Shown here piece by piece: positions 7,036 through 63,059 of a stretch of DNA of 64,000 nucleotides. Position numbers and translations under genes: made by a program. The DNA comes from Thiomicrorhabdus sp. Kp2 (GTDB lineage Bacteria > Pseudomonadota > Gammaproteobacteria > Thiomicrospirales > Thiomicrospiraceae). The number at the start of each line of letters is the position of its first letter. The stretch's first letter is position 1. The DNA lies in contig NZ_ARWI01000001.1 in NCBI RefSeq assembly GCF_000478585.1, positions 2,542,001-2,606,000 on the forward strand, written 5' to 3'. Under the pieces are notes generated by a model. That model was given only the letters and a program-made list of their open reading frames with translations. It ran no database searches and was not told where the DNA came from.

Positions 7036-8241
7036 TTATTCAATGACTTCGTAGTCTCCAGACTGAATCAAATCTTCTAGATCCTTAGTTTGCACCTGAT
7101 AGACGGTGGCAATCTTGCCTTGACCATTCACTGCGATTTTGAGCATGCCTTGTTCTGTTTTGACTAAGTACAATACGGTTTTGTTTTTTCTATCCCACAG
7201 TACTTGATGTGGCTGCTGTATTAATTGTGGTAAATCACTCCATTGCTGATAAGTTGGAGAGTTTCCTTGGGCATCGTGACGTTGTGATTTTTTACCTACC
7301 AATAAACGGTCATCCAGTGTCACTAAGCCTTGAGGGGTTTTAAGGTGTTTTGCCATAAAACCTAAAACAGTCGACTGCATGACTGCCACACTGATTGAAC
7401 GGCCTTTTCTGAGATTATCGTCATAGACTTTTTTAAGCCAACTTTGATAGTGCTGCTGACGGATATCTGATTGTAAAGTATGTTTTACCAGGCCTGGTGA
7501 TTTTCGGTAAAGGTGTTCGTCTAGCGATTTAAGTCGAGCTATGCCAGGGTTGTAGTCCCAGCCTGGATCAATACCTTGGGGGACTTGCAACAATTCACCA
7601 GTACGTTCATTAAGCCAATCACGATATTGTATATGTGGGTCTTTACTCACTCCGCCTAAGCGTTCCGCTTCAGCGGCACTGATCTGTCTCACTCGGCACT
7701 TACATCCCCAGCCGTTTGGCGGATAATGTGTTTGCCAAAAAGGGTGGTCGATGGGCAGAATGATTCGACTCCAACTAACGTGCTCGTCTCGGTGGTTTCT
7801 TGATGGCCCTAGTTCATACATCAAATACGGCATAGCCGCTTTGGTTTTTTGAGCACGCTCATATTGCCCAGCGGCACGAGCGGTACGTAGATTGGTTCGA
7901 TAGATAACCTTAAGACGTCGTGGAGACCCCAGTTGCACTTCATAAGTTTCACTTGTTAATGGATCTGTTTTGTCTTGACGACCCCACCAACCCAATTTGA
8001 TGAGCTGTGGTTTAAGTTCTTTTTGAAACTGTGCTAAGGTTTGCCCTTGAGAAATAGCCTGTTGGGTAGCGAGCTTGATGGCTTCCAACACATCAAACTC
8101 AGTCGCCTTGGCAACGGTAAAGGCAATTGCATGCTCTTCTTGCCAAACGTCCTTCCAGTTAAAAGAGGGTTGAATGCCTTTTGATTTAAACCACTTAAGC
8201 GTTTCTTTTGGCAGAGGAGGCTGATTGTATTTAACGGGCAT
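7036..8241 (-). CDS. Phage head morphogenesis protein, Mu gpF-like (gp30)
   Basis: A 401-residue protein of the SPP1 gp7/Mu F minor head family, involved in early head assembly at the portal. Family features are TFEVAKATEFDVLEAIKLA-like N-terminal helices, YRTNLRTARAAGQYERAQK near residue 120, and the Cys-containing PPNGWGCKCRVRQISAAEAE. The ATG at 8241 is preferred over GTG 8250 because AGGTGAC lies just upstream of it. It overlaps the portal gene by 11 bp. One exact ACCAGGCCTGGT copy (7487-7498) is inside, read as Pro-Gly-Leu-Val. Confidence 0.88.
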   Translation of the reverse strand: MPVKYNQPPLPKETLKWFKSKGIQPSFNWKDVWQEEHAIAFTVAKATEFDVLEAIKLATQQAISQGQTLAQFQKELKPQLIKLGWWGRQDKTDPLTSETYEVQLGSPRRLKVIYRTNLRTARAAGQYERAQKTKAAMPYLMYELGPSRNHRDEHVSWSRIILPIDHPFWQTHYPPNGWGCKCRVRQISAAEAERLGGVSKDPHIQYRDWLNERTGELLQVPQGIDPGWDYNPGIARLKSLDEHLYRKSPGLVKHTLQSDIRQQHYQSWLKKVYDDNLRKGRSISVAVMQSTVLGFMAKHLKTPQGLVTLDDRLLVGKKSQRHDAQGNSPTYQQWSDLPQLIQQPHQVLWDRKNKTVLYLVKTEQGMLKIAVNGQGKIATVYQVQTKDLEDLIQSGDYEVIE

Positions 8242-9814
8242 TACTGTCACCTAAACCACGTGCTTTAAAGGTTTGCTCTGCCAGTTTTATAATCAATTCA
8301 CTGCTTTCGATACTTTCAACCAGGCCTGGTAACTTTTGTAAAAAGTCTTCCAAGCTAACAGAGGCTGTCAATGCTTGCTCAATGGGATTGATCACCGCTT
8401 GAATTTGCGGTTGCCAATCTTGCATGGCTTCTTTTTCTAAATCATCTAGATCATCTAAGTCATCGACTTCAGCTGTTTGCTGAGCATTAATCGCCTTATC
8501 CTGTGTGTGGCAAGATGGACATTGGCAGGCCTGGTGGTTTAATGCACTTTGCTGCGGTAAGGCATCCGCTTTACCTAAAATCTCATCATCTTCTGCTGGG
8601 TCTGGCAGGCCAATCTTGTCACGCACGACTGACGCAGATACTTTAAGTCCTAAAGGTACCAGCTCTTTTAAGGCGTTGACCATCGCTTCGATATTTTCAG
8701 CTTCTGGAAGACTCCAAACGACTTTAGGGTAGTCGCCTTGTACACCAAAGTTAAGGTCAATAAACGGTTTGATTAAATCGCGATTAATGGTGCTTTCAAG
8801 CTGATTTAAATCTGACTCAAGGATATCGATGCGGACATCATTATGTACATTGGCTTGTGCTTGAGAACTGCCATCATCGGTTGTCATGGTTTGCCCAAGC
8901 ACCGCTTTGGAGATTTGTTTATCCAGATATTTTGCTAAGCGTTCAAAGGTATCGTTAGAGCCAGACTTTCTGCCGTCAACAAAATCGATATTCATGCTTT
9001 CAGGAATGACTGCAGCGGCATCGGTTCCAATATTGGCCACGGCATTAATTAGGGTTCTTATGTCATTTTCAGTCGCATTGTTGCCATGCTTACCAATGCG
9101 GATTGGCATACCATAAACTTCAGCAAACGCCATCCAGTCCGTAAGAGTGTATTGCTTACACATATAGGTAGCCGCAGCTAAACGTGCTAAACCTCCACGA
9201 GCTGGAATCCCTGATTTTAAGCGTGGAATATGTACCACAAACTTATAGGCTGGAAGCGATATGCCATTTAATAAGTCTTGCTCATCACGTAGCCTTAAGG
9301 TATGAGCATCATCTCTAGAAAACTGAAAGTGGCGAGGGTCACGCCACTTGTATTCTCGTGGTGTCCATACTGAACCGCGGTTCCAAAGAATTTCCGATAC
9401 GGCATAGCCTTTTCCCAAAGCATCTACACAATCCTGTACCAGTCGTGCAAAGCTTTCATGTTTAACTAAGCGGCGAACGGCATCAGCTATCTTGATAGAT
9501 TGGGCATCATCAGCGGCAGACTCTACTGCTGGTTTAACCCCTTCAATGGCTCGCTTACGGGTACCCAGTACAGAGCCGTAATGTGGCTCACGCTCTTCCA
9601 TCTCTTCTGCTAATGTTAAGTAGTCGTAGTTATCACCCTGGTTGGCCGACTCCAATACTTGAGCTAAACGCTCTGGTGTTAATCCACCTGCAATGGTATC
9701 GGTATTCCAAACTTGACGAACCCCTGTCATAGACGGTCTGGCTACTTCATCCGTTAAGGATTTTACTTTAATGGGTTCGCCGCGATAATCGACGATATTG
9801 GAGACTCTTTCCAT
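8231..9814 (-). CDS. Phage portal protein, Mu gp29-like (DUF935)
   Basis: The 527-residue protein is a DUF935 portal subunit, forming the ring through which DNA enters the head. Characteristic pieces are LQVLESANQGD-like, LTLAEEMEEREPHYGSVLGT, KRAIEGVKP, DALGKGYAVSEILW, FRDPRHFQFSRD-type sequence and the EVYGMPIRIGKHGNNATEND segment. Length is normal. A short Cys cluster (CQCPSCHT, about residue 430) is extra. It follows the terminase by 12 bp. An exact ACCAGGCCTGGT lies at 8319-8330 (Pro-Gly-Leu-Val). Confidence 0.92.
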   Translation of the reverse strand: MERVSNIVDYRGEPIKVKSLTDEVARPSMTGVRQVWNTDTIAGGLTPERLAQVLESANQGDNYDYLTLAEEMEEREPHYGSVLGTRKRAIEGVKPAVESAADDAQSIKIADAVRRLVKHESFARLVQDCVDALGKGYAVSEILWNRGSVWTPREYKWRDPRHFQFSRDDAHTLRLRDEQDLLNGISLPAYKFVVHIPRLKSGIPARGGLARLAAATYMCKQYTLTDWMAFAEVYGMPIRIGKHGNNATENDIRTLINAVANIGTDAAAVIPESMNIDFVDGRKSGSNDTFERLAKYLDKQISKAVLGQTMTTDDGSSQAQANVHNDVRIDILESDLNQLESTINRDLIKPFIDLNFGVQGDYPKVVWSLPEAENIEAMVNALKELVPLGLKVSASVVRDKIGLPDPAEDDEILGKADALPQQSALNHQACQCPSCHTQDKAINAQQTAEVDDLDDLDDLEKEAMQDWQPQIQAVINPIEQALTASVSLEDFLQKLPGLVESIESSELIIKLAEQTFKARGLGDSNAR

Positions 9815-9826
9815 TGTTTTATGTCC

Positions 9827-11943: not shown

Positions 11944-11944
11944 A

Positions 11945-12091: not shown

Positions 12092-12104
12092 GACTTATTC
12101 CTTC

Positions 12105-13517: not shown

Positions 13518-13954
13518 TAGATAACCTCCAAATAAAAGTCTTGTCGTTGTGTGATTTGATGAATTTTGCGAACAGCAGCACGACTTGCCAGGCCTGCCAT
13601 TTGACCGTTTAAAATGCCCATGCGTAAAGCAGGCAGCTGACAACCCCAGCTATCGGATTTAAAGCCTTTGAGTTTGTCGCCAGCAAAGTTACCAGGGTGT
13701 TGCAAAATGCCTCCTCGCCCTGGAACACGGGTAACGTGGTACACGTCTTTGTATTTACCGCTAGCAGAACGAGCCATGTACTTGACTAGATAGAGACCTG
13801 GCAGGATGCGGCTAATATTGGTTTGATTGTTGCGTTCGGGCAACTCCAACATAAAGCAGACTTTCTTGTTCTGGTAGACAAGTACGCCTGGCGTGCCTTG
13901 GTCAGATGAGCCTGCACGGTAGAGCTGGAGTGTTTTTAATTGATTCGCTTTCAT
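13517..13954 (-). CDS. DUF5675 protein, probable lysis gene
   Basis: A 145-residue protein of the DUF5675 type: LYRAGSSDQGTPGVLVYQN, MLELPERNNQTNISRILPG, GLYLVKYMAR and CQLPALRMGI are characteristic, with the conserved GGILQHPGNFAGDKLKG segment. These proteins often occupy the endolysin position in phages and have an L,D-transpeptidase-like look, though activity is unproven. No other lysozyme-like gene is visible in the window. A regulatory dyad lies 36 bp upstream of its start, making it the first gene of a late transcript. Confidence 0.72.
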   Translation of the reverse strand: MKANQLKTLQLYRAGSSDQGTPGVLVYQNKKVCFMLELPERNNQTNISRILPGLYLVKYMARSASGKYKDVYHVTRVPGRGGILQHPGNFAGDKLKGFKSDSWGCQLPALRMGILNGQMAGLASRAAVRKIHQITQRQDFYLEVI

Positions 13955-14005: not shown

Positions 14006-14030
14006 AGTTTTTGAGGATGGAAGATAGAGG

Positions 14031-14096: not shown

Positions 14097-14988
14097 TTAA
14101 TTAATCAATTGGTAGCTAATTACGCCTTTCTCTTTTTTGCTTACCCAGTAAATGGTTTCATACTGATCTAGTCTGTCACGGGCGGTTTTGTCGTCTTTTT
14201 TGTAACCACAACTCTCAAGTAGTTCAGTTTTATTGAGGCCTGGTTGTTTGTTTAAAGCGTTTTTAACCTCGTTAATAAAAGACTGTTCTTCAGAGCTAAT
14301 TCTTGCCGTGGTTATATCGATTGGCAGAAGGCTTAAGTCGTTTACTTTAACAGAAATGGCGGTGTCGACAATGGAGGCACGCTCTTTCTTTACGGTTAGT
14401 ACCCAGCGGATTTCTCCCTCTGGTGAATCGATTTTTGTTAACTGATACATGTTGTCGATAGAGTTACGAATATTGTTTGAGCCTTGGTAGTTGCGGCCGT
14501 CTTTGTTTGAGTGGTGCAATACGATGATGGTGGCTCCCGCTTCACGGATGTTTTTTAACTTGTCTCCAATACGCATAGCGGCATTGTCATTATTGACATC
14601 CCCAAAGTCTCGCAAGCTATCTAGCACAAACAGGGTGTTTTTATAGCGGTCTGCTACCGCCATATTTTCAAGTTCTTCTAGCATAGCAAGGGGGTTGCAA
14701 TTCGGTTTTTGAGCGGTGTGAGTAGTGCAGGTTTGAGCAGGCCTGGATAAGCTTTTGTTCTATGCCGCGTTCTTTAAGTACATTCATTGGGTTGTCGTAG
14801 TCTAGGTAGGCGACTGTCATGCCTTGTTGTGCGGCGTATTTAGCTAATGCCATCGCTAACCAACTTTTACCCATGCCGCCGTCGGCATAGATCATGGTAA
14901 TTAAATGCTTGGGGATAAAGCCTTCAATTAAAAACTCAGTTTTTTGATTAAAGTCTGATGGGGTTAGCGGGTTTAAAAAATGAAACAT
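14097..14988 (-). pseudogene. RepA/RecA-like AAA ATPase, frameshifted
   Basis: The first frame (14988 to about 14690) carries Walker A, YADGGMGKSWLAMALAKYAA; the second (14684-14097) carries Walker B, NTLFVLDSLRDFGD, the sensor IVLHHSNKDGRNYQGS, and a C-terminal winged-helix region. A run of five G (14690-14694, five C on the coding strand) separates them: removing one base joins ELQ to PLAMLEELENMAV smoothly. The whole would be an AAA_25/RepA-type ATPase of about 296 residues. It may be a mutation, a sequencing error in the homopolymer, or programmed slippage. It sits downstream of mor. Confidence 0.75.
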
Positions 14989-17093: not shown

Positions 17094-17247
17094 TGAATAA
17101 GCTCCCATAGGTTTAAATGCAGGTTTTTCACTGTTTAAATTCCGTTTAAATGTCACTTAAGAAAACGCTCTGAAGTCCATAGGTGGTGGATAACAAAGTT
17201 AAGTATTCAGAACGTTTTATTAAATGGCCTGTTACCAGGCCTGGTGG

Positions 17248-18892: not shown

Positions 18893-19237
18893 TTACTCTC
18901 CTTTACTTTTACTTTTTGGGTTGTTTGTACAGCTCTGGCAGGCTCTATAGAGCTGTACTCGCATTGGGTTGTTGGGTTTGAATCCTTTGTTTCTGTGGTT
19001 TGCACAGATGTCTGTGGTGATGACATCCAGTACAGGGCAAACAACGCTTTGTTCAAGTAAAGCCCCTGATACTTTTTCGGCTACGTTTTCAATATTGCCT
19101 TTGTAGGTACCTTTTATGATTTGGTTTACGGCTGTGCCGCTAATGCCACACTTTGCGGCGGCTTTGGCTTGTGAGCTGGTTTGTAGCTCTGTTTGAAGGG
19201 CTATGAACCAGGCCTGGTTTTGGTAGTTAGTAGTCAC
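18893..19237 (-). CDS. HTH-type early phage regulator
   Basis: GTG at 19237 with GGAGATTGAAG upstream is the best start (VTTNYQNQAWFIALQTELQT); it overlaps the preceding gene by 11 bp. The 114-residue product has a helix-turn-helix (SQAKAAAKCGISGTAVNQII KG) followed by a Cys-containing C-terminal half (CANHR, CQSC), which may bind metal. The ACCAGGCCTGGT copy at 19207-19218 is translated here as Asn-Gln-Ala-Trp-Phe. Probably a DNA-binding control protein of the early region. Confidence 0.65.
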   Translation of the reverse strand: MTTNYQNQAWFIALQTELQTSSQAKAAAKCGISGTAVNQIIKGTYKGNIENVAEKVSGALLEQSVVCPVLDVITTDICANHRNKGFKPNNPMRVQLYRACQSCTNNPKSKSKGE

Positions 19238-24709: not shown

Positions 24710-25028
24710 TATTGATTGCCTATTTATAGCAAGTTTTTGTTCTATTTTGGTTCAAATTTGTTTTCATAGAATATCTCGATTAGATAACACTATGTTTTAT
24801 ATATGATTTTGTTCTGGCATAAATAGTGTTATTAGTGTTTGTTAATATTCATGAGTTTTAAGTAAGTTGTTTTATTGAATGATTGCTTTTATTTCATTAA
24901 TTTATATGAACTATGTTCCTTGTTTATAAGGCGTTTAACTTGTTTCTGTTTTGTTTGAATAAAAAATCAACTTTCTCAAAGTTACCAGGCCTGGTAGATT
25001 TATTTTGGTCTTTTAAGTGGGGTTGTAG
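24710..25028. other. Host DNA between phage end and nasT
   Basis: This 319-bp AT-rich stretch has no supportable gene. It carries an exact ACCAGGCCTGGT at 24984-24995, 33 bp before nasT, and presumably the nasT promoter. Five bases after the phage end are TATTG, the candidate target duplication; the other copy lies outside the window. Confidence 0.6.
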
Positions 25029-28437: not shown

Positions 28438-29436
28438 ATGAATCCTTTAAAATGGGGGTTAATTGAACCCTTCTACAAATTAGTGATAGGTGAGGATCGT
28501 AAAGGGCAAATTAATACAATCGTTAAGATGATTGGTTTGCCTTTAACTGGCTTGCTTATCTTTCTTGTTGTGTGGCAAGGGGCTGCATCCAATATCCATA
28601 CATCTTTAGGTCAGTTTCCTGGTCCTGTTCAAACCTATGAGCAATTTGTTTCTTTAGGTGAAGAGGCTGAGCAAGAGGCGATTAAAGAAGCAGGTTTTTA
28701 CCAAAGACAAGAAGAGCGCAATGCGCGTAAATTAGAAAAGAACCCAGAAGCTGAAGTTAAAATTCGTGAATATACTGGTCATCCTACGTTTTTTGATCAA
28801 ATAGTACGAAGCTTAATTACGGTAATGAGTGGTTTTATTTTGGCATCGATTATTGCGATTCCAATTGGAATTATCATTGGTTTGAGTACGAATGCTTATT
28901 CGGCGGTAAACCCTTTAATTCAAATCTTTAAGCCTGTTTCCCCTCTTGCGTGGTTACCTTTGGTGACGATGGTGGTTTCAGCGGTTTATGTAACAGATGA
29001 CCCTGCATTTGATAAAGCATTCTTAAACTCTATGTTTACGGTATTGCTATGTTGTTTATGGCCTACCATCATTAACACGGCGGCAGGTGTTGCGACGGTA
29101 ACGCAAGATTTAAAGAATGTTAGCCAGGTATTAAGTTTAAGTTGGTGGACACATATTCGTAAAATTGTACTTCCGTGTTCAATTCCAATGATGTTTACAG
29201 GTTTACGTATCTCATTGGGTATTGCTTGGATGGTATTGATAGCAGCTGAAATGTTGGCGCAGAACCCAGGCCTGGGTAAATTTGTATGGGATGAATTTCA
29301 AAACGGAAGTTCGGACTCTTTAGGCCGTATTATGGTTGCTGTTATTGTAATTGGTGTAGTCGGTTTCTTTTTAGATCGTGGCATGTTGATTCTACAAAAA
29401 GCGGTTTCGTGGGATAAATCAGCGGATATTCGCTAA
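28438..29436 (+). CDS. nrtB: NrtB nitrate ABC transporter permease
   Basis: ATG 28438 with AAAGG upstream is preferred because the alternative at 28405 lies in a hairpin. The 332-residue product has an N-terminal span (IGLPLTGLLIFLVVWQGAAS), a charged insert (about residues 70-110), then five spans with the BPD-type loop AAEMLAQNPGLGKFVWDEFQ that contacts the ATPase. It forms the membrane channel of the nitrate importer with the downstream ATPase. An ACCCAGGCCTGGGT palindrome falls within this loop sequence. Confidence 0.9.
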   Translation: MNPLKWGLIEPFYKLVIGEDRKGQINTIVKMIGLPLTGLLIFLVVWQGAASNIHTSLGQFPGPVQTYEQFVSLGEEAEQEAIKEAGFYQRQEERNARKLEKNPEAEVKIREYTGHPTFFDQIVRSLITVMSGFILASIIAIPIGIIIGLSTNAYSAVNPLIQIFKPVSPLAWLPLVTMVVSAVYVTDDPAFDKAFLNSMFTVLLCCLWPTIINTAAGVATVTQDLKNVSQVLSLSWWTHIRKIVLPCSIPMMFTGLRISLGIAWMVLIAAEMLAQNPGLGKFVWDEFQNGSSDSLGRIMVAVIVIGVVGFFLDRGMLILQKAVSWDKSADIR

Positions 29437-34353: not shown

Positions 34354-34413
34354 TTTGTAATCCAATAGATATTTAAAGATTGACCAGGCCTGGTAGGTTA
34401 AAAGGAATAAGAA

Positions 34414-40749: not shown

Positions 40750-40779
40750 CTAGCAGGCCTGCTAGGTTAGTGTTTTTTT
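40744..40779 (+). terminator. Palindromic terminator with AGGCCT core
   Basis: ACTAACCTAGCAGG (40744-40757) is perfectly complementary to 40758-40771, with a run of seven T on the plus strand from 40773. The core is the CAGGCCTG shared with the dispersed palindrome. On the minus strand there is no T-run, so its direction suits plus-strand transcription although no plus gene lies within 700 bp. Confidence 0.6.
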
Positions 40780-41647: not shown

Positions 41648-41909
41648 GAATTTTCCTTTTTATATTGTTCCTATTAGAGCAACTTAGCTCAATTTTTACT
41701 TGTTGTGCATTTTAACGTATTTGAACAATGAACACTTAAAAGCTCTTTGTGTTTATCAATCAAATAAAAGTGACCAGGCCTGGTAATTCATAAAACTGTC
41801 ATTTATTTGTTACCTAATTTTTAAAATTGATTTTTAGAATACAGGCATGTTGTTTTGTTCAGTAGAGCGAAACTGTGACTATAAATTTAAAAATATTTAG
41901 GAAATTACT

Positions 41910-42624: not shown

Positions 42625-43914
42625 TTATTTTAAGGCTATAAATTTGCTTAACTGCGGTTTAACTACTTCAAAACTCAGCGGGGCAATATTAGGTAGCCCA
42701 TTTTTAAATGGAGCGGTTTTTTCACCTTGTATAAGCGGTCTAATATAGTTTAAAGCTTCTTGCGTGATATCCATTCCATCTTCTGTGAGAAAGTGATCTG
42801 GAACTGTTTTTTCTAAATTAGCCACTTCTATTAATGATACGGTTTCAAATTCAAAACGGAAGGGATTGGCCGAGGTCATTTTGATAATAGGGAGTACACC
42901 GTGTTCACCTCTTAATGCCGCTTTTACTGCTTCTTCACCCGCTTGATAGGCCATTTGCCAATCAATTTCAGAAACTAAGTGACTGGCTGAACGTTGACAA
43001 TAATCAGGGATGGCACAATGCGTTTTACTGTTTAGGTGTTCTCCAACAATATGCGCCAGTGTTGAACCCACTCCACCCAGTTGTACATAGTCTTTTTCAT
43101 GGGTGTGTTCTATATTAGCAATAGAAATGTAGTCGCCATTCTCTTTTGTTAAGCCTTCAGAAACCGCACAAACACAATAACCTTTACTGGCAATCAGTTC
43201 ATCAACTTTAGCCAAAAAGGCTTGTTGATTAAATTTACGTTCTGCGGGTAAAACAATTAATGGAACGTCTGGTATTACATCTTTTACCAGGCCTGCTGCA
43301 ATCGTTAACCAACCTGTGTTTCTTCCCATCGCCTCCATAACAAAGAACTTGGTAGATGTTTGATGCATAGAGTAAATATCTAAGCTTGCTTCAATAAAAC
43401 TGGTGGCTAGGTATTTAGCCGCACTGCCATAACCTGGGCTACAGTAAGAAATATCTAAATCATTATCAATGGTTTTTGCCACACCAACACAGGTTACTTT
43501 ATGGCCATTGTGACAGCAGTATTCGGCCACTTTTTGTGCGGTAACCATAGAACCATTACCACCGTTATATAAGAAGTAACCAATCTCATAGGTTTTAAAA
43601 ACTTCAAGCACTCGCTGATACTGCTCTGGGTTATGTTCTAAAGGGTCTAAATCAAAACGACACGCTTTAAACACCGCACCTGGTTGGTATTTCATCTGCT
43701 CAAGTGTTGCGGCTGAAATATCGCTTAAATCAACTAACTCTTCTTCTAAAACGCCTTTTATACCGTTAATTGCCGCGTAGGTTTTACCAAACGTTTCAGG
43801 ATGCTTTTGGATGGTTTCAATAACGGCTGCGGCACTGGCGTTAATCACAGCGGTTACGCCGCCTGCTTGTGCATAAAGTACGTTTTTGGCCTGTTGCGGT
43901 TGAGCTGCATTCAC
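42625..43914 (-). CDS. pfp: Phosphofructokinase, probably pyrophosphate-dependent
   Basis: The 429-residue protein has the phosphofructokinase catalytic motif AKTIDNDLDISYCSPGYG, the donor loop YNGGNGSMVTA, and MEAMGRNTGWLTIAAG. Lys before TIDND is the residue linked to pyrophosphate use, while GGNGS has the glycine seen in ATP enzymes; donor choice is thus not fully settled. PPi enzymes are usual in related sulfur oxidisers and methylotrophs lacking a standard ATP enzyme. An ACCAGGCCTGCT near-copy lies inside (43286). Confidence 0.83.
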   Translation of the reverse strand: MNAAQPQQAKNVLYAQAGGVTAVINASAAAVIETIQKHPETFGKTYAAINGIKGVLEEELVDLSDISAATLEQMKYQPGAVFKACRFDLDPLEHNPEQYQRVLEVFKTYEIGYFLYNGGNGSMVTAQKVAEYCCHNGHKVTCVGVAKTIDNDLDISYCSPGYGSAAKYLATSFIEASLDIYSMHQTSTKFFVMEAMGRNTGWLTIAAGLVKDVIPDVPLIVLPAERKFNQQAFLAKVDELIASKGYCVCAVSEGLTKENGDYISIANIEHTHEKDYVQLGGVGSTLAHIVGEHLNSKTHCAIPDYCQRSASHLVSEIDWQMAYQAGEEAVKAALRGEHGVLPIIKMTSANPFRFEFETVSLIEVANLEKTVPDHFLTEDGMDITQEALNYIRPLIQGEKTAPFKNGLPNIAPLSFEVVKPQLSKFIALK

Positions 43915-45256: not shown

Positions 45257-46675
45257 GTGAAACCGCAAAAAATACACATATTAGGCATTGCCGGAACCTT
45301 TATGGGCGGTATCGCCCAAATTGCCAAAGCGATGGGGCATGAGGTAACCGGCTCTGATAAGGCGATTTATCCTCCAATGAGCACGCAATTAGAACAAGCG
45401 GGCATTGGGGTAATGGATGACGATTCGATTGAATTTTTAAAACATGAACCTGACGCGGTGGTGGTGGGTAATGCCAAAAGCCGAGGGCACGTTGCCGTAG
45501 AAGCCACTTTAAATGCACAACAAGTTTACACCTCTGGCCCACAATGGCTGGCTGAACATATTTTAAAAGATCGCTGGGTAGTCGCTGTGGCAGGCACACA
45601 CGGCAAAACCTCAACCGCCTCTATGGTGGCGTGGATTTTAGAGTTTGCCAAATTAAATCCTGGTTTCTTAATTGGTGGTGTGCCCGAAAACTTTGGTGTG
45701 TCGGCTCGATTAGGTGATTCACCGTTTTTTGTGGTTGAGGCCGATGAATACGACACCGCATTTTTTGATAAACGTTCTAAGTTTGTGCACTATCATCCAA
45801 GAACTTGTGTGCTCAATAATCTTGAATTTGACCATGCCGATATTTTTGATTCGGTTAAAGACATCCAAAAACAGTTTCATCACTTAGTACGCACTGTGCC
45901 TGGCAATGGGTTAATTGTAATGCCAAATGATGAACCGAACTTAGATGAGGTCATTACACAAGGTTGTTGGACACCGATAGAAAAGCAAGGTTCAAGTGCC
46001 GAGTGGAGTTACAAACTGTATGAGCAAGATGGTTCTGAATTTGAGGTCATGTTTCAAGGTAGTTGTTTAGGGCGTGTGGTTTGGCCATTAAGAGGCCTGC
46101 ACAATGTGCGTAATGCGTTGAGTGCAATTGCGGCGGCGGTGCATTGTGGTGTGCCAGCGCGTATTGCGGTAGAAGGTTTATCTGAGTTTAAAGGGATTCG
46201 CCGCAGAATGACGTTGGTTGGTGAAGCGGGAGGAATCAAAATTTACGATGACTTTGCCCATCATCCAACCGCCATTGAAACCACGTTAAAAGGTGCCAAA
46301 AACCAACTTTTAAAATCTACCAGGCCTGGTAAAACCGATGATGATTTAGATTCTGCGAAGCAATCAGGACGATTAATCGCCGTGTTTGAACCGCGTTCCA
46401 ATACGATGCGAATGGGGATTCACAAAGCGACATTACCCAATGCGTTTATAGAAGCCGATGCGGTTTATGCCTTTATTGATGATGCTTGGAATTGGCAACT
46501 GCCTACAGAGCAATTTACCCAGCCGATTTATGTGCAAAATAGCTATGAAAAGCTATTAGAGCAGTTAATGATAGAATTGCAACCTGGCGATACCGTTGTA
46601 ATAATGAGTAACGGCAGTTTTGGTGGCATTCACCAAAAACTGTATTCTGCTTTACAAACTCAGTATTCAATATAA
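45257..46675 (+). CDS. mpl: Murein peptide ligase Mpl
   Basis: The 472-residue ligase begins KIHILGIAGTFMGGIAQIAK and carries the ATP site VVAVAGTHGKTSTASMVAWI and the Mur-family parts VLNNLEFDHADIF, PLRGLHNVRNALSAIAAAV and YDDFAHHPTAIETTLKGA. It joins recycled L-Ala-D-Glu-mDap tripeptide to UDP-MurNAc. An exact ACCAGGCCTGGT at 46319-46330 encodes Thr-Arg-Pro-Gly in a variable insert before the C-terminal domain. The stop overlaps the following microprotein start (TAATG). Confidence 0.95.
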   Translation: MKPQKIHILGIAGTFMGGIAQIAKAMGHEVTGSDKAIYPPMSTQLEQAGIGVMDDDSIEFLKHEPDAVVVGNAKSRGHVAVEATLNAQQVYTSGPQWLAEHILKDRWVVAVAGTHGKTSTASMVAWILEFAKLNPGFLIGGVPENFGVSARLGDSPFFVVEADEYDTAFFDKRSKFVHYHPRTCVLNNLEFDHADIFDSVKDIQKQFHHLVRTVPGNGLIVMPNDEPNLDEVITQGCWTPIEKQGSSAEWSYKLYEQDGSEFEVMFQGSCLGRVVWPLRGLHNVRNALSAIAAAVHCGVPARIAVEGLSEFKGIRRRMTLVGEAGGIKIYDDFAHHPTAIETTLKGAKNQLLKSTRPGKTDDDLDSAKQSGRLIAVFEPRSNTMRMGIHKATLPNAFIEADAVYAFIDDAWNWQLPTEQFTQPIYVQNSYEKLLEQLMIELQPGDTVVIMSNGSFGGIHQKLYSALQTQYSI

Positions 46676-46761: not shown

Positions 46762-47027
46762 ATGGCATAGAGTATTGCACAAGAGTATGAATGTGTGGGC
46801 TAATTTATGTGGCATAGAATAGGTTAAAAGCGCACTATACGGTTACCATATTTTATGGTTTTAAGGGGCGTCAGCCTAATTTTTATCCGCATGAGACTTA
46901 TACCAAAACCTATTTGAAAATAGAAACTTACCAGGCCTGGTAGGTACTGTGGCAATATAAATTATGTAAGCATAGCGCAAAATTTCATTTTTAAATCAAT
47001 TGGGTCTGATTCATTAAATTTCTTATT

Positions 47028-48728: not shown

Positions 48729-48888
48729 ATAAAGTTTTAAACTATTCCTGCCGTTCATTCAGTTCTGATTGCTAGAGTTACCAGGCCTGTTAGTTTGCTC
48801 GAAATCAAGTGTTTTGTTTTGTTTCAACACGGATTTTCACTCCTTTTTTATTTTCTTCAACTTTCACAAATCGTTTGATACCGTCCAG

Positions 48889-53141: not shown

Positions 53142-53256
53142 CTAAAATGTCCAACTTTTTGGGGTCACTTCATCGGCTTGAGGCCTGGTAGGTTTTTTTG
53201 TTTTTATCTACTTCTATTCTTGTTGTTCTTGTCTGCTTTTTATTACTTTTTACGGT

Positions 53257-54624
53257 TTATTTTTCAGCGGCTTGTTGTTGCAGTTTTCTATATAAAGTAG
53301 AGGCATCAATGCCTAGCTTTTGTGCCGCTTTTGATTTATTACCTTGGCAAGCATTTAAAACATGGTCAATCCATAGGTTTTCTATTTCAGCTAAACTCGC
53401 TTCTTCAGGCAGAGTGATGCTCGAATTTTCGAGCGAACCCACTTTATATTGGTGAAGTTCACTCGGCAGGTGAGAAATCTCAATGGTATCGCCTTTGGTT
53501 AACACCACGCTGCGTTGAATAATGTTCTCTAACTCACGTATATTACCAGGCCAGTCATAATGACTAAGGGCGTCAAAAACCTTAGGTGAAATACTATAAA
53601 TCTGTTTATTGAAACGTTTTGCATACATTTTTACAAAGGATTCTGCTAAAGCGGGAAGATCTTCTTTACGGTGACGTAATGGCGGAATTTGTATTGGGAA
53701 GACATTGATTCTATAGAATAAATCCTCTCTAAATAAGCCTTGTTCAACAAGCGGTTTTAAAGGCTGGTTGGTTGCAAAGAGTAGCCTTACATTGATTTTA
53801 ATCGCCTTGTTTCCACCTACACGAACAATGGTTTGATCTTGTAAAAAATGCAGTAATTTTGCTTGAACATCTAGTCGAATGCTATTGATTTCATCCAATA
53901 ATAAAGTACCGCCATTGGCTAATTCCAGCAGGCCTGCTTTGCGGTTGCTTGCACCAGTAAAGGCGCCTTTTTCATAACCAAATAGCTCAGATTCAACCAG
54001 GTTTTCTGGCAGTGCAGCGCAGTTAAGTTCAAAATAGGGGCCTTTAGGATTGGTACCAATACTATGAACATATTTTGAAAGCACACCTTTTCCCACGCCT
54101 GTTTCACCATAAATAAGCAGCGATACATCGAGCGGTGCGGCTTGTTGAACCTCTTTTATAATCTCTTGCATGGCTAGCGATTTATAAATAGGTTCTTGAC
54201 TGGATTTTTCGAGCTGTTGCAGTCGGGTTTCCATTTGCAGCATACGAGTTTGATGCTGAATCATATTCTGTAAACGTGACAACAGGTTTTGAATAAGACT
54301 GGTATCAAATGGTTTGGTAATCAGGTCAAATAGTCCAAATTTAAACGCTTCAGTGGCATCTTGAACGCTGGCATAACCCGTAATCATCACCACTTTGGTC
54401 GTGTTATTATGCTCTTTAACCGCTTGAACGATTTGTAAACCATCCCCATCGGGTAATTTTAAATCGGTTAAAACAACTTCTGGGTTAATTTGGTGAAGCT
54501 GGTGCAACCCTTCAGTTAAGGTATGGCAAATGGTGGTAGCAAAGCCTTGTGATTCAGCTAATTCACCCAGAAGCTTGGCCATGTCTATATCGTCTTCAAT
54601 AATTAAAATTGAGTAATTAAGCAT
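53257..54624 (-). CDS. NtrC-family sigma-54 response regulator
   Basis: The 455-residue protein has a receiver (ILIIEDDIDMAKLLGELAES, phospho-Asp in VVLTDLKLPDGDG), an AAA+ domain (GETGVGKGVLSKYVHS; ELFGYEKGAFTGASNRKAG with the sigma-54 contact GAFTGA; GGTLLLDEINS) and a Fis-type HTH (ACQGNKSKAAQKLGIDASTL). It overlaps its kinase by 8 bp. Its binding site is likely the palindrome found before soxA and the porin. Confidence 0.92.
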   Translation of the reverse strand: MLNYSILIIEDDIDMAKLLGELAESQGFATTICHTLTEGLHQLHQINPEVVLTDLKLPDGDGLQIVQAVKEHNNTTKVVMITGYASVQDATEAFKFGLFDLITKPFDTSLIQNLLSRLQNMIQHQTRMLQMETRLQQLEKSSQEPIYKSLAMQEIIKEVQQAAPLDVSLLIYGETGVGKGVLSKYVHSIGTNPKGPYFELNCAALPENLVESELFGYEKGAFTGASNRKAGLLELANGGTLLLDEINSIRLDVQAKLLHFLQDQTIVRVGGNKAIKINVRLLFATNQPLKPLVEQGLFREDLFYRINVFPIQIPPLRHRKEDLPALAESFVKMYAKRFNKQIYSISPKVFDALSHYDWPGNIRELENIIQRSVVLTKGDTIEISHLPSELHQYKVGSLENSSITLPEEASLAEIENLWIDHVLNACQGNKSKAAQKLGIDASTLYRKLQQQAAEK

Positions 54625-56020
54625 CTATTGGTACCTGCAATAAAAATGTTGTGCCGTTTTGGTCGCTTTTTTGGATGGTTATCTCCCCATGCATTTGTTG
54701 AAGAAGCGTTCTGTTTAGGTATAAACCTAATCCCGTACCTGAGTTGGATTGTGCATTGGCCGTTTTAGTTGAAAAGAACGCTTTAAAAACTTTTTGTTGG
54801 GTTTCTTTATCAATACCTTCACCATTATCTTCTACCTGAAGTTTCCAGCCTGGGCTCTCTTCATCGGCCATTAAAGTAAAAATCATCTCTGTGGCATTGG
54901 CTTCCATGCTATTGGATATTAAATTAAAGATAATCTGTTCAAAAGAGCTAGGGTCAATTTTACTCAAGGCAGAAGTGGGGTGGTTAAATTGCAAACGCAT
55001 ATTGGATTTTTGCCGAGCGATGGGGGTCATGGTTTGTAGTAAGTTGTCAATAAAGCTCACTAAATCAATCGATTGAATGATTAGTTCAGGCTTTTTGGCA
55101 GAATCGAGTAGGTTTTTAACCGCATCAGAACAGTTTTTTGCCTGGCGTTCAATAATTTGTAAACGTTCTATGAGGGCGTTATCTTCTGTTTGTTGAATGG
55201 CCATTTGTGAGTAACCGATGATATTGGCTAAGGGGGTGTTTAAATTATGTGCTAAACCCGCTGCCATTTGGCCTGTGGTAATGAGTTTTTGACTTTGACA
55301 GAGGTTTTGAGTCGCTTTGGCACTAAATTCATGTGCGGTAGCAAGTGATTTAATGTGTTGCTGTAAAGCTTGTTGAAGTTTATACACGGCATTGTTTAGC
55401 AGGCTCAGTTCATCGGGTAAATCTTGTTTTAGGTCGAGCGTTTCATAAAATATTTTTTGGGTGGAGTTCAGCTCTAAACACAAGTCTTGTATTGGGTTAA
55501 TCACATGTTTAGAGAGCAGTCGTTGAACAGCAAAAAACAAACTAGCAAGCATGAATAAGAAGGCAAGCGCCGCCAATATCGACAATTGTAATAAGGATTG
55601 GTTGATAGAGGTTGTACTAAAGTGTAATGAAATATTACCCGCAGGTCGGTTAAAGAAAGTTAAAGGTTTATTAATTTCCAGGCCTGGGGATTCGATTATT
55701 TCTGCGTGGGTTACTTCTGAAAGCACTTGGTTGTGCTGATTGGTAATTTTAATTTTAAGTAAATCGGGGTTCTTATTGACCAAGTCATGGCTCATTCTCT
55801 CAATAATGCTGTACTCCTGTAACATAACGGCATCTAAGGTGAGTGTAGAGACTTGCTCAGCTAAAGCGAGCGCTTTACTTTTTAATGATTCTTGTAAAAT
55901 ATGAGAGATAAAGTAATAACCCGATACACTCAGCGCGAGTGTGATGACTACCAGGCCAATCCCTAAGTAAAAATTAAGAATGCCTGCAAGTGTTTTGGGG
56001 CGAAGTTGACTTAGCGTCAT
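54617..56020 (-). CDS. Sensor histidine kinase
   Basis: A 467-residue kinase with two membrane segments (about 13-36 and 150-172) enclosing a periplasmic sensor of about 110 residues, a HAMP-like stretch, a DHp box (GLAHNLNTPLANIIGYSQMA, His in AHNLNTP) and an ATPase with N (QIIFNLISNSMEANATEM), G1 (VEDNGEGIDKE) and G2 (GTGLGLYLN). It pairs with the overlapping regulator. The signal is unknown; the neighbours suggest reduced sulfur or envelope conditions. Confidence 0.92.
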   Translation of the reverse strand: MTLSQLRPKTLAGILNFYLGIGLVVITLALSVSGYYFISHILQESLKSKALALAEQVSTLTLDAVMLQEYSIIERMSHDLVNKNPDLLKIKITNQHNQVLSEVTHAEIIESPGLEINKPLTFFNRPAGNISLHFSTTSINQSLLQLSILAALAFLFMLASLFFAVQRLLSKHVINPIQDLCLELNSTQKIFYETLDLKQDLPDELSLLNNAVYKLQQALQQHIKSLATAHEFSAKATQNLCQSQKLITTGQMAAGLAHNLNTPLANIIGYSQMAIQQTEDNALIERLQIIERQAKNCSDAVKNLLDSAKKPELIIQSIDLVSFIDNLLQTMTPIARQKSNMRLQFNHPTSALSKIDPSSFEQIIFNLISNSMEANATEMIFTLMADEESPGWKLQVEDNGEGIDKETQQKVFKAFFSTKTANAQSNSGTGLGLYLNRTLLQQMHGEITIQKSDQNGTTFLLQVPIDA

Positions 56021-56113: not shown

Positions 56114-56155
56114 AAAAACAAAGGTCTTAAAGAGAATAGATTAATTATTTAGTTT

Positions 56156-57235: not shown

Positions 57236-57348
57236 AGTTTCCTCATTTATTTCTTAAAAGCTAAATTTTGGGATTAAATTTTTATGTTTTTGGGGTGTGT
57301 TCAAATTTTATTTACATTGAATCTCATTCAAATCCCTTACTACTAATA

Positions 57349-57442: not shown

Positions 57443-57518
57443 ATATTAGTTAATGGTGATTGAGATGTAATTGGGCTCAATAAACGGTAGACTAATCACA
57501 CTATTTTGAGGGCGTAGA

Positions 57519-58403: not shown

Positions 58404-58441
58404 TTGGATAGCTAGATAAGAAAGGCTAAAAAGCTAAAAGC

Positions 58442-58762
58442 CTAAATTAATATGAGTAAATCGCCAAAGCCCCAGATTAGTGTACCCGCTACTAGTGTGA
58501 TATGCGTTAGACGTACCTTCTTTTGATGCCAGCGCGAGGGTGTAATATCGTCAATTTCTCTTATGGTTGTATTGCTTTCCAAACTATCATAGAGGATTTT
58601 TAATTCGCCATGCAGTAGAGAGTATTCACTCATTACCGCAAACAATACAATTAAACTGCCAAAACGAGCAAACCATAATGGCTCTAAGGCGAGACCTAAA
58701 ATTAAACCTACCAGGCCTGCCAGCCAGGACAGAAGCAATAATAAACCACTTTTCTTTTTCAT
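58442..58762 (-). CDS. Small membrane protein, 106 residues
   Basis: Three membrane segments are visible (LLLLLSWLAGLVGLILGLAL, FARFGSLIVLFAVMSEYSLL, THITLVAGTLIWGFGDLLIL) with a charged loop at about 53-78. No family recognised. A near-copy ACCAGGCCTGCC is inside (58710). It lies 12 bp after epmC and is likely cotranscribed. Confidence 0.65.
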   Translation of the reverse strand: MKKKSGLLLLLSWLAGLVGLILGLALEPLWFARFGSLIVLFAVMSEYSLLHGELKILYDSLESNTTIREIDDITPSRWHQKKVRLTHITLVAGTLIWGFGDLLILI

Positions 58763-58774
58763 AAATTATCCAAA

Positions 58775-59302: not shown

Positions 59303-59345
59303 ATTTGAGTGTTTTTAAAGAATAAACAGAAGGGGTTTAATAAAT

Positions 59346-59381
59346 ACCAGGCCTGGTAAATAGGTTTTTACCAGGCCTGGT
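59346..59381. repeat. Two ACCAGGCCTGGT palindromes 24 bp apart
   Basis: Exact copies at 59346-59357 and 59370-59381, separated by AAATAGGTTTTT, lie in the 93-bp gap between epmC and the hemL stop. The 24-bp phase puts them about two helical turns apart, on one face of the DNA. As RNA they could pair with one another as well as fold singly. Confidence 0.85.
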
Positions 59382-59395
59382 AGAATCAAATGTAT

Positions 59396-60676: not shown

Positions 60677-60807
60677 GGAGATTCCTTTTGGTATAGCTTG
60701 TTGAAATGCGATGTTATCGACTCTTAACAGCAAAAATAGGTTCGCTAAAATGTGTCGGTATTATAGCCTGATTTACCTCTAAAGATAAGCGGGGTTATAA
60801 ACGCACA

Positions 60808-61440
60808 TTAGAATAGATTTTGAATGGCTCTGCTTTGGTTTTCAATCTCTTTGTGGGCAAATATGCCTTGAATCACCGCAACCGAATCTGCACCCGCTTT
60901 GATGAGCGAGTTTGCATTGTTTATATTGATACCACCAATGGCTACGATGGGAATATTGAGCTGTTTTTTTGCGAGTGTTAAGGTGCTTAAATCAGCCTGT
61001 GGTGCATTGGGTTTGGTTTTGGATGCAAAGAAACGCCCAAAGGCGACATAGTCGGCACCCAATGTTTGCATGGCTTTGGCTCGTGCTAAGTCGTTATAAC
61101 AACTCACACCAATAATGGCGTCTTTCCCGAGTTCCTGACGCGCAAGAGTAATATCGTCATCGTCTTTGCCAATATGTACGCCATCCGCATTCACCTGTTT
61201 AGCTAATTGAATATCATCATTGATAATGAACCAGGCCTGGTAGCTTTGACAAAGGGATTTAAGTTGGCTGGCAAGTTCGATTTTTGTTAGTTGGTCGTTA
61301 ACCTTGTCCCTAAACTGAACGATTTTAGCCCCGCCTTTAAGGGCTTGTTCTACCTTTTTAATGATATTTTGACTGTTCATTAATTGGGTATCGGTAATTA
61401 CATATAAACCAGAAATAGGCTTGAAAGAAGACTCTGTCAT
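60808..61440 (-). CDS. thiE: Thiamine-phosphate synthase ThiE
   Basis: A 210-residue TIM-barrel enzyme: ISGLYVITDTQLMNSQNIIK, AKIVQFRDKVND, FIINDDIQLAKQVNADGVHI GKDD, GADYVAFGRFFASKTKPNAP and VAIGGININNANSLIKAGAD. It joins HMP-PP and THZ-P. The exact ACCAGGCCTGGT at 61230-61241 is read as Tyr-Gln-Ala-Trp. It ends 132 bp upstream of the hemL start on the same strand. Confidence 0.94.
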   Translation of the reverse strand: MTESSFKPISGLYVITDTQLMNSQNIIKKVEQALKGGAKIVQFRDKVNDQLTKIELASQLKSLCQSYQAWFIINDDIQLAKQVNADGVHIGKDDDDITLARQELGKDAIIGVSCYNDLARAKAMQTLGADYVAFGRFFASKTKPNAPQADLSTLTLAKKQLNIPIVAIGGININNANSLIKAGADSVAVIQGIFAHKEIENQSRAIQNLF

Positions 61441-61519
61441 AAGGGTTTGATTTTTTAGGAAGGAGAGAAGGGTTCTCCTTACTCAAGTGAATAAGGAGTG
61501 GCGTTGAGCGATTACCAAT

Positions 61520-62023: not shown

Positions 62024-62091
62024 AATATTTCTCTAAATATTCTCTAATTATCACACCCTAAAGGAGGGTGGTTCAATAAAGTAGCTCAATA

Positions 62092-62122
62092 AAAAAGGGT
62101 CATTGTAAAGATGACCCTTTTT
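62092..62122 (-). terminator. Terminator after rpiA
   Basis: AAAAAGGGTCAT pairs with ATGACCCTTTTT around TGTAAAG. The symmetrical A/T runs make it bidirectional; on the minus strand it closes rpiA, 74 bp after its stop. Confidence 0.88.
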
Positions 62123-62195
62123 GCTGTCTTGATGTAATCATACGTTGTCATTGCGTATTGACAATATCCTACAAATGATTGTCAGACTTTTTTCA

Positions 62196-62861
62196 TTATT
62201 TTGCGGTGATAGTCTCAACGCCGTTTGCTGTACCACAAAGGAAAATATCCGCTTTACGAGCTGCAAACAAACCATTAGTGACTACGCCAACAATGCTGTT
62301 TAATTCATTTTCCATGGCAACAGGGTCAACAATTTCTAGGCCGTGAATGTCTATAATGATATTGCCGTTATCGGTTGTAAAACCATCACGCAATACTGGC
62401 TCACCACCAAAGCGTTTAACAATTTCACGCGCCACATAACTGCGCGCCATTGGAATCACTTCCACAGGCAGTGGGAATTTACCTAAAACATCGACTTTTT
62501 TACTGTCATCAGCAATACAGATAAATTTGTCTGCAACCGCTAATACAATTTTTTCACGAGTAAGTGCACCACCACCACCTTTTACCAGGTGAAGACTTGG
62601 ATCGGCTTCATCAGCACCATCAATGTAAACAGACATCTCTGCAACACTGTTTAAATCAAACACAGGAATTCCGTGACCTTTTAAGCGTTCCGCAGTGGCT
62701 TCTGAACTTGCAACCGCACCTTCAATGCTACCTTTGATTTTAGCCAACTCATCAATGAAAAAGTTAGCCGTTGAACCTGTTCCCACACCAATAATCGTGT
62801 CTGGAACAACGTATTCAATTGCCGCTTGTGCTACTTTTTGTTTAAGTTCATCTTGTGTCAT
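62196..62861 (-). CDS. rpiA: Ribose-5-phosphate isomerase A
   Basis: A 221-residue enzyme with [57 protein letters not shown] and [20 protein letters not shown]. It interconverts ribose-5-P and ribulose-5-P, also serving the Calvin cycle in an autotroph. Length is normal. Confidence 0.95.
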
Positions 62862-63059
62862 GGGAGACCTCTTCTTTGCTATTACTATTATTATTTTATT
62901 TTTTTGTAACTGGTAATTTTAATCAATTAACGGAGACTTGTATAGGAGATATTACGGATTGTTTTGAATGTTGACAGAATCTATTGAGCGAATAGGAGAG
63001 GGAAAATCACCAGGCCTGGTAAGACAAGCCTGATGATTGAGTTTAGTGAAAAGACACTA

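Follow-up and report, generated by a model that had tools for sequence, protein, structure and literature searches.

A dispersed 12-bp palindrome forms a lineage-switching DNA address in one group of sulfur-oxidising bacteria

The palindrome ACCAGGCCTGGT is the signature of a genuine, lineage-switching DNA address, a word present in hundreds of copies in approximately half of the sampled species of one group of sulfur-oxidising bacteria. Its abundance, symmetry, dialects, switching between presence and absence, conservation at orthologous positions and preference for gene ends were observed, as was its depletion on one plasmid-like contig. The reading that we tentatively prefer, at somewhat less than an even chance, is that the site is read by a dimer as double-stranded DNA and forms a chromosome-wide 'self' address, kept by a bias in DNA exchange that operates without a classical type IV pilus. 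It has long been asked why certain genomes accumulate a single short word, and this one family amounts to a natural experiment on it: 32 of its genomes have the word and 30 lack it, the state has switched several times, one dialect is rewritten, and one motif-rich genome holds a contig poor in the motif.

The original prediction listed 15 exact copies of ACCAGGCCTGGT in the 64-kb window (the whole stretch of DNA that was analysed), and the 12-mer was verified at all 15 positions. It also placed the chance expectation far below one, in agreement with 0 matches in dinucleotide-preserving shuffles of the window (n = 100) and a third-order Markov expectation of about 0.01. The core CAGGCCTG occurs 27 times, 15 within exact 12-mers and 12 elsewhere, and hence the estimate of roughly ten further core-keeping copies was correct; position 53181, named as one of them, has to be withdrawn, as it reads GAGGCCTGG and does not keep the core. 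The dyad is extended by its flanks, as had been proposed for many copies, though the extended form TACCAGGCCTGGTA is found in only 5 of the 15. The sites in the window are as follows.

7487..7498, unstranded, exact 12-mer, inside Mu-like prophage
8319..8330, unstranded, exact 12-mer, inside Mu-like prophage
17234..17245, unstranded, exact 12-mer, inside Mu-like prophage
19207..19218, unstranded, exact 12-mer, inside Mu-like prophage
24984..24995, unstranded, exact 12-mer, extended TACCAGGCCTGGTA
30940..30951, unstranded, exact 12-mer
34383..34394, unstranded, exact 12-mer
39776..39787, unstranded, exact 12-mer
41773..41784, unstranded, exact 12-mer
46319..46330, unstranded, exact 12-mer, extended TACCAGGCCTGGTA, within mpl
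46930..46941, unstranded, exact 12-mer, extended TACCAGGCCTGGTA
59346..59357, unstranded, exact 12-mer, member 1 of a tandem pair (spacing 24 bp), directly past the hemL stop
59370..59381, unstranded, exact 12-mer, member 2 of the tandem pair
61230..61241, unstranded, exact 12-mer within thiE, exact too in 6 motif-rich relatives (G049, G028, G026, G032, G021, G022)
63009..63020, unstranded, exact 12-mer
8524..8535, unstranded, core CAGGCCTG, outer letters differ
13587..13598, unstranded, core CAGGCCTG, outer letters differ
14736..14747, unstranded, core CAGGCCTG, outer letters differ
29265..29276, unstranded, core as CCCAGGCCTGGG
38791..38802, unstranded, core CAGGCCTG, outer letters differ
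39105..39116, unstranded, core CAGGCCTG, outer letters differ
40752..40763, unstranded, core as AGCAGGCCTGCT
43286..43297, unstranded, core as ACCAGGCCTGCT
48780..48791, unstranded, core as ACCAGGCCTGTT
53927..53938, unstranded, core as AGCAGGCCTGCT
55677..55688, unstranded, core CAGGCCTG, outer letters differ
58710..58721, unstranded, core as ACCAGGCCTGCC

A genome-wide count had been set beforehand as a possible refutation, and the motif withstood it, with 557 copies of ACCAGGCCTGGT in the whole 2.73-Mb genome against 0 of the reversed spelling that served as control. Placement was analysed in a 900-kb sample of the genome containing 199 exact copies, 95 of them genic. The genic copies use all three frames (49 QAW, 37 PGL and 9 TRPG), which is as predicted and indicates that the DNA rather than a peptide is kept. 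The density of the 12-mer in this sample was 0.848 per kb in intergenic DNA and 0.122 in genes, an approximately sevenfold difference, and the intergenic value depended on gene orientation: 1.41 per kb between convergent, 0.87 between co-directional and 0.38 between divergent genes. A transcription-factor operator was rejected on this contrast between divergent and convergent regions.

Distances between sites were more regular than random (CV 0.78 vs 0.99, p 0.008, for the first 100 sites), and 10 pairs of close neighbours were found at 23-27 bp, where 1.6 were expected for 20-28 bp. Across 45 stretches of 20 kb, the counts fit a Poisson distribution (chi-square 34.6 on 44 df) and no depletion was seen at the GC-skew flips, including the stretches near the 0.2 Mb flip; a weak one-harmonic trend along the chromosome (p 0.006) has its maximum at 2.53 Mb, at neither flip. 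The suggested segregation or nucleoid-occlusion role thus found no support, and a role tied to the origin-terminus axis was rejected, since density over the 45 stretches is not biased along it.

The 12-mer proved to be the centre of a two-fold symmetric site of about 22-26 bp, for which we derived the approximate consensus AAnYTACCAGGCCTGGTARnTT with the core CAGGCCTG. Flank preferences are symmetric and similar in coding and intergenic sites. Copies with one mismatch number 19, 20, 0, 6, 1 and 0 by symmetric position pair from the outside in, a total of 46 against 115 exact copies. A/T tracts surround the dyad in several genomes, whereas G052 lacks them and those of G056 are weak.

Could such a palindrome be mainly the stem of a transcription terminator, acting at the RNA level? 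We consider this very improbable, in spite of the placement at gene ends, terminator-like neighbour pairs, additional covariation of the dyad at three positions in the flanks of intergenic sites, and a folding energy past stops that is lower than in motif-free stretches (-14.3 vs -10.5). Approximately half of the copies are genic (95 of 199), for which reason the terminator was rejected as the primary role; a T-run of at least 4 accompanies only 11 of 55 gene-end copies (9 of 95 genic ones), and the genic sites retain their flank preferences with no covariation beyond the first pair.

Conservation in close relatives had also been named as a point on which the motif might fall. Ungapped orthologous sites were exact in 20 of 25 comparisons (G049, G028, G026 and G032), as against 5-9% for control 12-mers, showing that orthologous copies are largely kept. 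Copy numbers of the core CAGGCCTG in 62 related genomes fall into two groups, with 236-1173 copies in 32 genomes, 0-74 in the other 30 and no genome between 74 and 236. The motif is not the species-wide signal that had been proposed: it is distributed over the family, switches between presence and absence, and has dialects. In a quick tree built from hemL and covering 35 of the 62 genomes, the motif state changed at least five times, two of these changes being forced by starred branches. G027, which sits within a clade of core-poor genomes on the hemL tree, has 12 cores yet 1025 copies of ACCGGCCGGT, a palindrome found at most 15 times in any of the other 61 genomes; it shares the outer ACC/GGT and central GGCC of the main dyad, and each of its halves is one base pair shorter. 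No comparable replacement palindrome was seen outside repeat arrays in nine other genomes of the 30 core-poor ones (20-120 kb of each). None of 10 G027 sites examined, several of which aligned to few or no relatives, fell on CAGGCCTG of an aligned relative, and conversion of sites in place between dialects was rejected on this result.

Several of these features could also be expected of an architectural site, at which a lineage-specific nucleoid-type protein would bend or bridge the DNA every few kilobases, selection keeping an even spread wherever genes tolerate it. The operator-like symmetry, the A/T tracts in several genomes, the even spacing, the site-by-site conservation in relatives and the avoidance of divergent intergenic regions all agree with this explanation, which also has no need of pili. 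We nevertheless regard it as rather unlikely, because the switching and the G027 dialect would require about 1000 sites to be lost or re-made, and we know of no architectural protein with a specificity so strict and so labile. The lack of an origin-terminus bias argues against its occlusion and segregation kinds only. If the explanation were correct, the chromosome-organising protein would be an unusually labile one.

A 97-kb plasmid-like contig of a motif-rich genome has 7 cores where 43.6 were expected, an approximately sixfold depletion for which a recent arrival of the contig may be a simple alternative. The Mu-like prophage is near host density (7 cores vs 9.3 expected); in the IMG/VR relative nearest to it, 17.6 kb hold 1 core and some of the sites are one to two bases off. 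No motif-rich virus was seen among the 36 IMG/VR stretches that contain the 14-mer, each in one copy, a weak test because our own prophage also has 0 copies of the 14-mer. The host-like density of the prophage beside that of its relative, together with the even spacing, would suit a self mark used in recombination or defence in a Chi-like manner, whereby site-bearing DNA is spared or repaired and other DNA degraded. Such a mark seems quite improbable to us, given that the dyad is symmetric, unlike Chi-type signals, that the plasmid-like contig is retained despite its few copies, and that the IMG/VR stretches, weak as that test is, yielded no motif-rich virus.

A methylation site had been put forward as another role. 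Neither the C5 (PF00145) nor the N4/N6 (PF01555) family was matched in 13 of the 32 motif-rich genomes (2 of the 13 being <90% complete) or in G027, and methylation by these enzymes, which do not track the motif over the 62 genomes, was consequently rejected; the test covers these two families among the modification classes, which also include m6A-only families and phosphorothioation, the latter considered as a candidate at GGCC. The same result bears on a HIP1-like process, in which a modification enzyme would act at part of the motif and linked repair or selection would create and keep the words. The palindromic, GC-rich and highly iterated nature of the motif and its replacement by another palindrome in one relative are as described for HIP1 in the part of PMC4390886 considered here, and the source genome has a C5 enzyme, though it adjoins an EcoO109I-type endonuclease. 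With neither family in those 13 genomes and G027, and with a depleted plasmid-like contig in a motif-rich genome, which is unexpected if all cell DNA were converted quickly, we judge this process improbable. The remaining role that had been suggested, mutational propagation, is possible.

Competence and pilus families likewise failed to track the motif. True type IV pilus PilM, the sole type IV pilus component sought genome-wide, was found in 1 of 62 genomes, the motif-poor G004; control genomes can match via FtsA and do not establish the specificity of the search, and weak PF11104 matches in other genomes look like FtsA/MreB, one being confirmed as FtsA. No relatives of the G004 PilM-PilN-PilO were present in 2.87 Mb of other stretches, covering part of each genome. 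ComP_DUS (PF16732), the receptor family of Neisseria, exceeded the cut-off in 0 of 62 genomes and also in 0 of 14 control genomes, which leaves the sensitivity of the search unproven. FimT/GspH (PF12019), FimT being a general DNA receptor, was matched in 3 of the 62 genomes, all motif-poor; short pilins of either family are easily missed. The type IV pilus and pilin-receptor families were accordingly rejected as trackers, neither a true PilM nor a match to the two receptor families being seen in a motif-rich genome. ComEC was rejected as a discriminating gene, since it is near-universal (31 of 32 motif-rich and 25 of 30 motif-poor genomes).

Our preferred reading, the exchange-biased self address, proposes that a putative dimeric protein binds the two-fold symmetric, 22-26-bp double-stranded site; a dimeric, sequence-specific DNA-binding protein is the most likely reader. 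The copies would serve as a 'self' address across the chromosome, maintained and replenished by some process that gives site-bearing DNA an advantage. Most likely, chromosomal DNA would be exchanged and recombined with a bias, in the manner of uptake signal sequences, by machinery distinct from the classical type IV pilus. Loss of the reader would let the sites decay, and a shift in its specificity would let a new dialect spread, as ACCGGCCGGT may have done in G027. In its favour we counted the 557 copies against 0 of the reversed spelling, the rich/poor bimodality, the state changes, the G027 dialect, the symmetric flanks, the scarcity of one-mismatch copies, the orthologous conservation, the intergenic and convergent preference, the even spacing, the close pairs, the depleted plasmid-like contig and ComEC in 31 of 32 motif-rich genomes. 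Counted against it were the PilM, ComP_DUS and FimT/GspH results, the undiscriminating ComEC, the prophage near host density, the palindromy, a one-mismatch ratio unlike that of Neisseria, the A/T tracts absent or weak in two genomes, the perhaps recent arrival of the plasmid-like contig, and the fact that no reader gene was found. Comparing which genes are present across the family ought to identify the reader.

A wider proposal, which we hold as doubtful though possible, is that Neisseriaceae and Pasteurellaceae are joined here by a third self-DNA signature of independent origin: palindromic, dimer-read, dialect-bearing, and biasing the exchange of DNA among environmental sulfur oxidisers that lack classical type IV pili. 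If so, a new DNA-recognition and transfer machine is still to be found, and a reader that governs DNA exchange would give bacterial sex a third means of recognising self.

Among known palindromic sites, those of the nucleoid-occlusion proteins SlmA and Noc are GC-centred and dimer-bound, and a density biased along the origin-terminus axis would be expected of SlmA, Noc and MatP sites; the copies described here are far more numerous than SlmA or Noc sites and are depleted at neither skew flip. REP elements are palindromic, multi-copy and extragenic, near gene ends, whereas nearly half of the exact copies in our sample are genic. Chi-type signals are asymmetric and read on one strand, in contrast to a perfect palindrome with symmetric flanks. 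The 12-mer had no match in the literature text searched, the matches listed for the core as a text string were unrelated by title, and among the matches listed none described a motif of this bacterial group by title or abstract start; the portions of PMC5217627 and PMC6501319 at hand hold nothing on the motif.

The likeness to HIP1 or to a protein-binding or uptake signal that had been suggested is borne out as a resemblance. HIP1 of cyanobacteria, in the sections of Elhai 2015 (PMC4390886) considered, is a highly iterated GC-rich palindrome, abundant in some lineages and nearly absent from others, with another palindrome in a few, and its role is described there as unresolved. Here too a palindrome is over-represented genome-wide and is replaced by another in one relative; the dyad is longer, has flank preferences and is tracked by no C5 or N4/N6 methyltransferase family, and its strong preference for intergenic DNA may be a further difference. 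The DUS of Neisseriaceae, according to the sections of Frye 2013 (PMC3630211) considered, occur in hundreds to thousands of copies, in dialects with a constant inner core and in association with terminators; 1294 DUS pairs of Simonsiella muelleri overlap with dyad symmetry, and one-mismatch copies in Neisseria are about equal to or above exact ones. The copy numbers and the dialects around a constant core are shared with DUS and USS (the exception is G027, where just GGCC and the outer ACC/GGT are retained), as is a secondary use as terminators or inverted pairs, by a minority of sites here. Unlike DUS, the site is a single perfect palindrome, whereas the uptake sequences known so far are non-palindromic (PMC1939737, in the part considered); its one-mismatch copies are fewer than the exact ones, and the motif-rich genomes have no ComP_DUS over the cut-off and no true PilM. 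The USS of Pasteurellaceae, as far as the sections of PMC12616744 considered describe them, combine a core with flanking regions that are rich in A/T and lie helical turns away, and they also show dialects, pairs in terminators and a high density, all of which recur here, except that the A/T regions of USS are one-sided and the present site is two-fold symmetric. No known system is matched in full by the dyad signature; it departs from HIP1 and from the Neisseria and Haemophilus uptake sequences in some of the criteria tested, yet it behaves like an uptake signal that marks self-DNA.

The original prediction of 15 exact copies of the palindrome ACCAGGCCTGGT in the window was borne out position by position, with no match in 100 dinucleotide shuffles of the window and a third-order Markov expectation of ~0.01. 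The core, CAGGCCTG, occurs 27 times in the window. One cited near-copy (at 53181) lacks this core, and the flank extension of the dyad, claimed for many copies, was found as the 14-mer TACCAGGCCTGGTA in five of the 15. The whole genome of Thiomicrorhabdus sp. Kp2 (one contig of 2,725,706 bases, with the window at 2542001–2606000) carries 557 copies of ACCAGGCCTGGT and none of the reversed control (the pattern spelled backwards), confirming over-representation beyond the window.

Placement was evaluated in 900 kb, or 33% of this genome, using an in-house ORF model (805 genes, 86% coding). The density of ACCAGGCCTGGT reached 0.848 per kb outside genes (104 copies), compared with 0.122 per kb within them (95 copies); between genes it was 1.41 per kb in convergent, 0.87 in co-directional and 0.38 in divergent spacers. 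As originally observed, genic copies are read in three frames (49 QAW, 37 PGL and 9 TRPG). Among co-directional copies, 36 of 66 lie within 50 bp past a stop codon; the mean folding energy 3' of stops was −14.3 with the motif vs −10.5 without it, and a T-run of at least four was present at 11 of 55 gene-end copies vs 9 of 95 genic copies. Some copies thus appear to have termination as a second use, though a terminator as the identity of the motif itself is highly improbable. In 1.46 Mb of motif-rich DNA, neighbouring cores lay 20–28 bp apart in 10 cases (1.6 expected). Counts per 20 kb followed a Poisson distribution (chi-square 34.6, 44 df), and spacing was more even than random among the first 100 sites listed (CV 0.78 vs 0.99, p 0.008). 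A one-harmonic density trend (p 0.006) peaked at 2.53 Mb, away from the sign changes of GC skew at ~0.2 and ~1.55 Mb; hence no origin–terminus role is apparent, and the earlier suggestion of a nucleoid or segregation site gained no support from the replichores.

The flanks of 115 exact copies, taken from 504 kb of the Kp2 genome, were symmetric and informative, with T at −1 in 58%, T or C at −2 in 92%, and A at −4 and −5 in ~61%; these preferences were similar in genic and intergenic copies. Left–right covariation of the flanks was confined to the first pair in genic copies and involved pairs 3, 6 and 7 in intergenic ones. The 46 one-mismatch copies in the same 504 kb were distributed over the symmetric position pairs, outermost first, as 19, 20, 0, 6, 1 and 0. 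When flanks were compared among genomes, A tracts ~10–12 bp from the centre were seen in G041, the G024 group, G010, G061 and G027, were weak in G056, and were absent from G052. The symmetric flanks, the preferences common to genic and intergenic copies and the covariation pattern argue for double-stranded DNA recognised by a symmetric, probably dimeric, protein, and part of the intergenic copies may additionally be hairpin-shaped.

Conservation was assessed on the 26 exact sites of a 104-kb region surrounding the window, of which 5 to 7 could be aligned gap-free, flanks included, with each of the four closest motif-rich relatives. As the original prediction would have it, the motif is kept in close relatives: 20 of 25 comparisons, which reuse identical Kp2 sites and are not independent, were exact (G049 5/7, G028 5/7, G026 4/5 and G032 6/6) vs 5–9% for control 12-mers with similar flank identity. 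Sites with gaps or without an alignment, many of which are intergenic or lie in the prophage, do not enter the count. Other motif-rich genomes offered few aligned sites, with exact fractions of 1/1 (G021), 1/2 (G022), 0/1 (G048, one mismatch), 0/1 (G024), 0/2 (G046) and 0/1 (G041), and none was exact in the core-poor G030 (0/3), G027 (0/1), G031 (0/1) and G051 (0/2).

Counting was extended to 62 genomes of the family, the Thiomicrospira-Hydrogenovibrio-Thiomicrorhabdus group; an order-level search yielded the identical 62. Exact ACCAGGCCTGGT ranged from 0 to 718 per genome, and the core was bimodal, at 236–1173 copies in 32 rich genomes and 0–74 in 30 poor ones (reversed controls, 0–36). Rich genomes make up 15 of 32 in the window's genus (g1), 7 of 11 in g3, 9 of 9 in g6 and the single one in g7; genera g2, g4 and g5 are core-poor. 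On a hemL tree the rich/poor state changes at least five times, two of them forced by starred branches, and none of 500 label shuffles reached as few changes. This tree, built by a rapid search from one gene in 35 of the 62 genomes and with 9 of its 32 inner branches starred, is a rough guide on which gain and loss are indistinguishable. Such lability counts against a costly architectural protein as the reader of the site; this is nevertheless the strongest rival explanation, if on balance an unlikely one. The 14-mer had at least 80 matches in the named genome collection; among the matches listed, Thiomicrorhabdus sp. Milos-T2 had 8, Thiomicrorhabdus sp. NP51 had 2, two distinct MAGs named Comamonas sp. 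lk also carried it, one Kutzneria stretch held it twice, and each remaining organism had one.

A frequent-word search of 28 genomes (20–504 kb of each) revealed a separate dialect, ACCGGCCGGT, with 1025 copies in G027, which sits within a core-poor clade of the hemL tree, and no more than 15 in each of the remaining 61 genomes. The dialect word shares its outer ACC/GGT and its central GGCC with the main motif, each of its halves being one base pair shorter. Fifteen copies each in G029 and G031 of the same clade (reversed control, 3 and 2) are perhaps a faint trace of it. Sampling of nine further core-poor genomes, of which four were represented by just 20 kb, turned up no comparable palindrome outside repeat arrays. 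Rich genomes share an unchanged core and differ in the bases next to it, with ACC..GGT in the clade of the window, AGC..GCT in G041, a mixture in G024, G046 and G047, and C or G in G052. Core-poor G007 (L163–L165) has a non-palindromic repeated word, ATCTGCCAGGCTGGG, which has CCAGGC in common with the motif and parts of which occur 6–10 times in the 60 kb sampled. Dense arrays of repeat units in G051 (L157–L159, ~100 copies of the top words) and G008 (L160–L162, 18–36) may be CRISPR-like or tandem.

Methylation, another role proposed earlier, is not borne out for the two methyltransferase families searched. PF00145 and PF01555 each occur in 24 of 62 genomes, rich and poor alike, and 13 of the 32 rich genomes, together with G027, match neither. 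The analogy with HIP1 (PMC4390886) fails on its methyltransferase link for these same families, and a HIP1-like process appears improbable. The C5 methyltransferase of Kp2 itself (L012:504–2538), with a MerR-type N-terminal match, adjoins an EcoO109I-type endonuclease gene.

The window contains soxA, nitrate transport and reduction genes, an IS3-family transposase gene (52368–53141) and the following element:
850–23288, Mu-like prophage with transposase, portal, MuF, terminase, head and baseplate genes
The prophage has host-like motif density (7 cores vs 9.3 expected; 4 exact copies vs 4.6). The one relative found in IMG/VR (L386) has 1 core and 0 exact copies in 17.6 kb, and falls one or two bases short of the motif at some sites. 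IMG/VR held 36 stretches with one 14-mer each, a weak test given that the Kp2 prophage itself has 0. The 97-kb contig G021:C2 (L353, L387–L390) has 7 cores vs 43.6 expected (p 8e-12), six-fold below the rest of its genome, and looks plasmid-like, its longest frames resembling conjugation and partition proteins by eye; the 16-kb contig G059:C2 (L354) has 2 of CAGGCCTG vs 10 of AGGCCT. That the motif marks DNA for recombination or defence is a rather improbable reading. Neisserial conjugative elements are described as marked by atypical DUS content (PMC7371117).

Of the uptake machinery, ComEC was detected in 56 of 62 genomes, among them 25 of the 30 poor ones and 31 of the 32 rich ones, whose single exception is 82% complete. 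PF11104 had a single strong match among the 62, in motif-poor G004, adjoining PilN and PilO; 55 further genomes gave weak matches that resemble FtsA or MreB, one being confirmed as FtsA, three more starting alike and the rest judged from length and score. ComP_DUS gave nothing above cut-off in the 62 genomes, nor in 14 control genomes, and GspH/FimT-like pilins occurred only in motif-poor G040, G042 and G051.

Membership in the uptake sequences therefore fails: the PF11104 search of the 62 genomes revealed no classical pilus machine in any motif-rich genome, and a 2007 paper (PMC1939737) describes uptake sequences as non-palindromic and mostly free of gene-end bias, whereas the motif here is palindromic and gene-end biased. 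In Simonsiella, 1294 overlapping, dyad-symmetric DUS pairs are reported (PMC3630211). What remains is that the motif works like uptake sequences, which it resembles in its many copies, in having A/T flanks, terminator pairs and dialects built on an invariant core, in favoring gene ends and in being depleted from a contig of plasmid-like character; by this analogy, we tentatively favor an uptake-like self-address as a possible reading.
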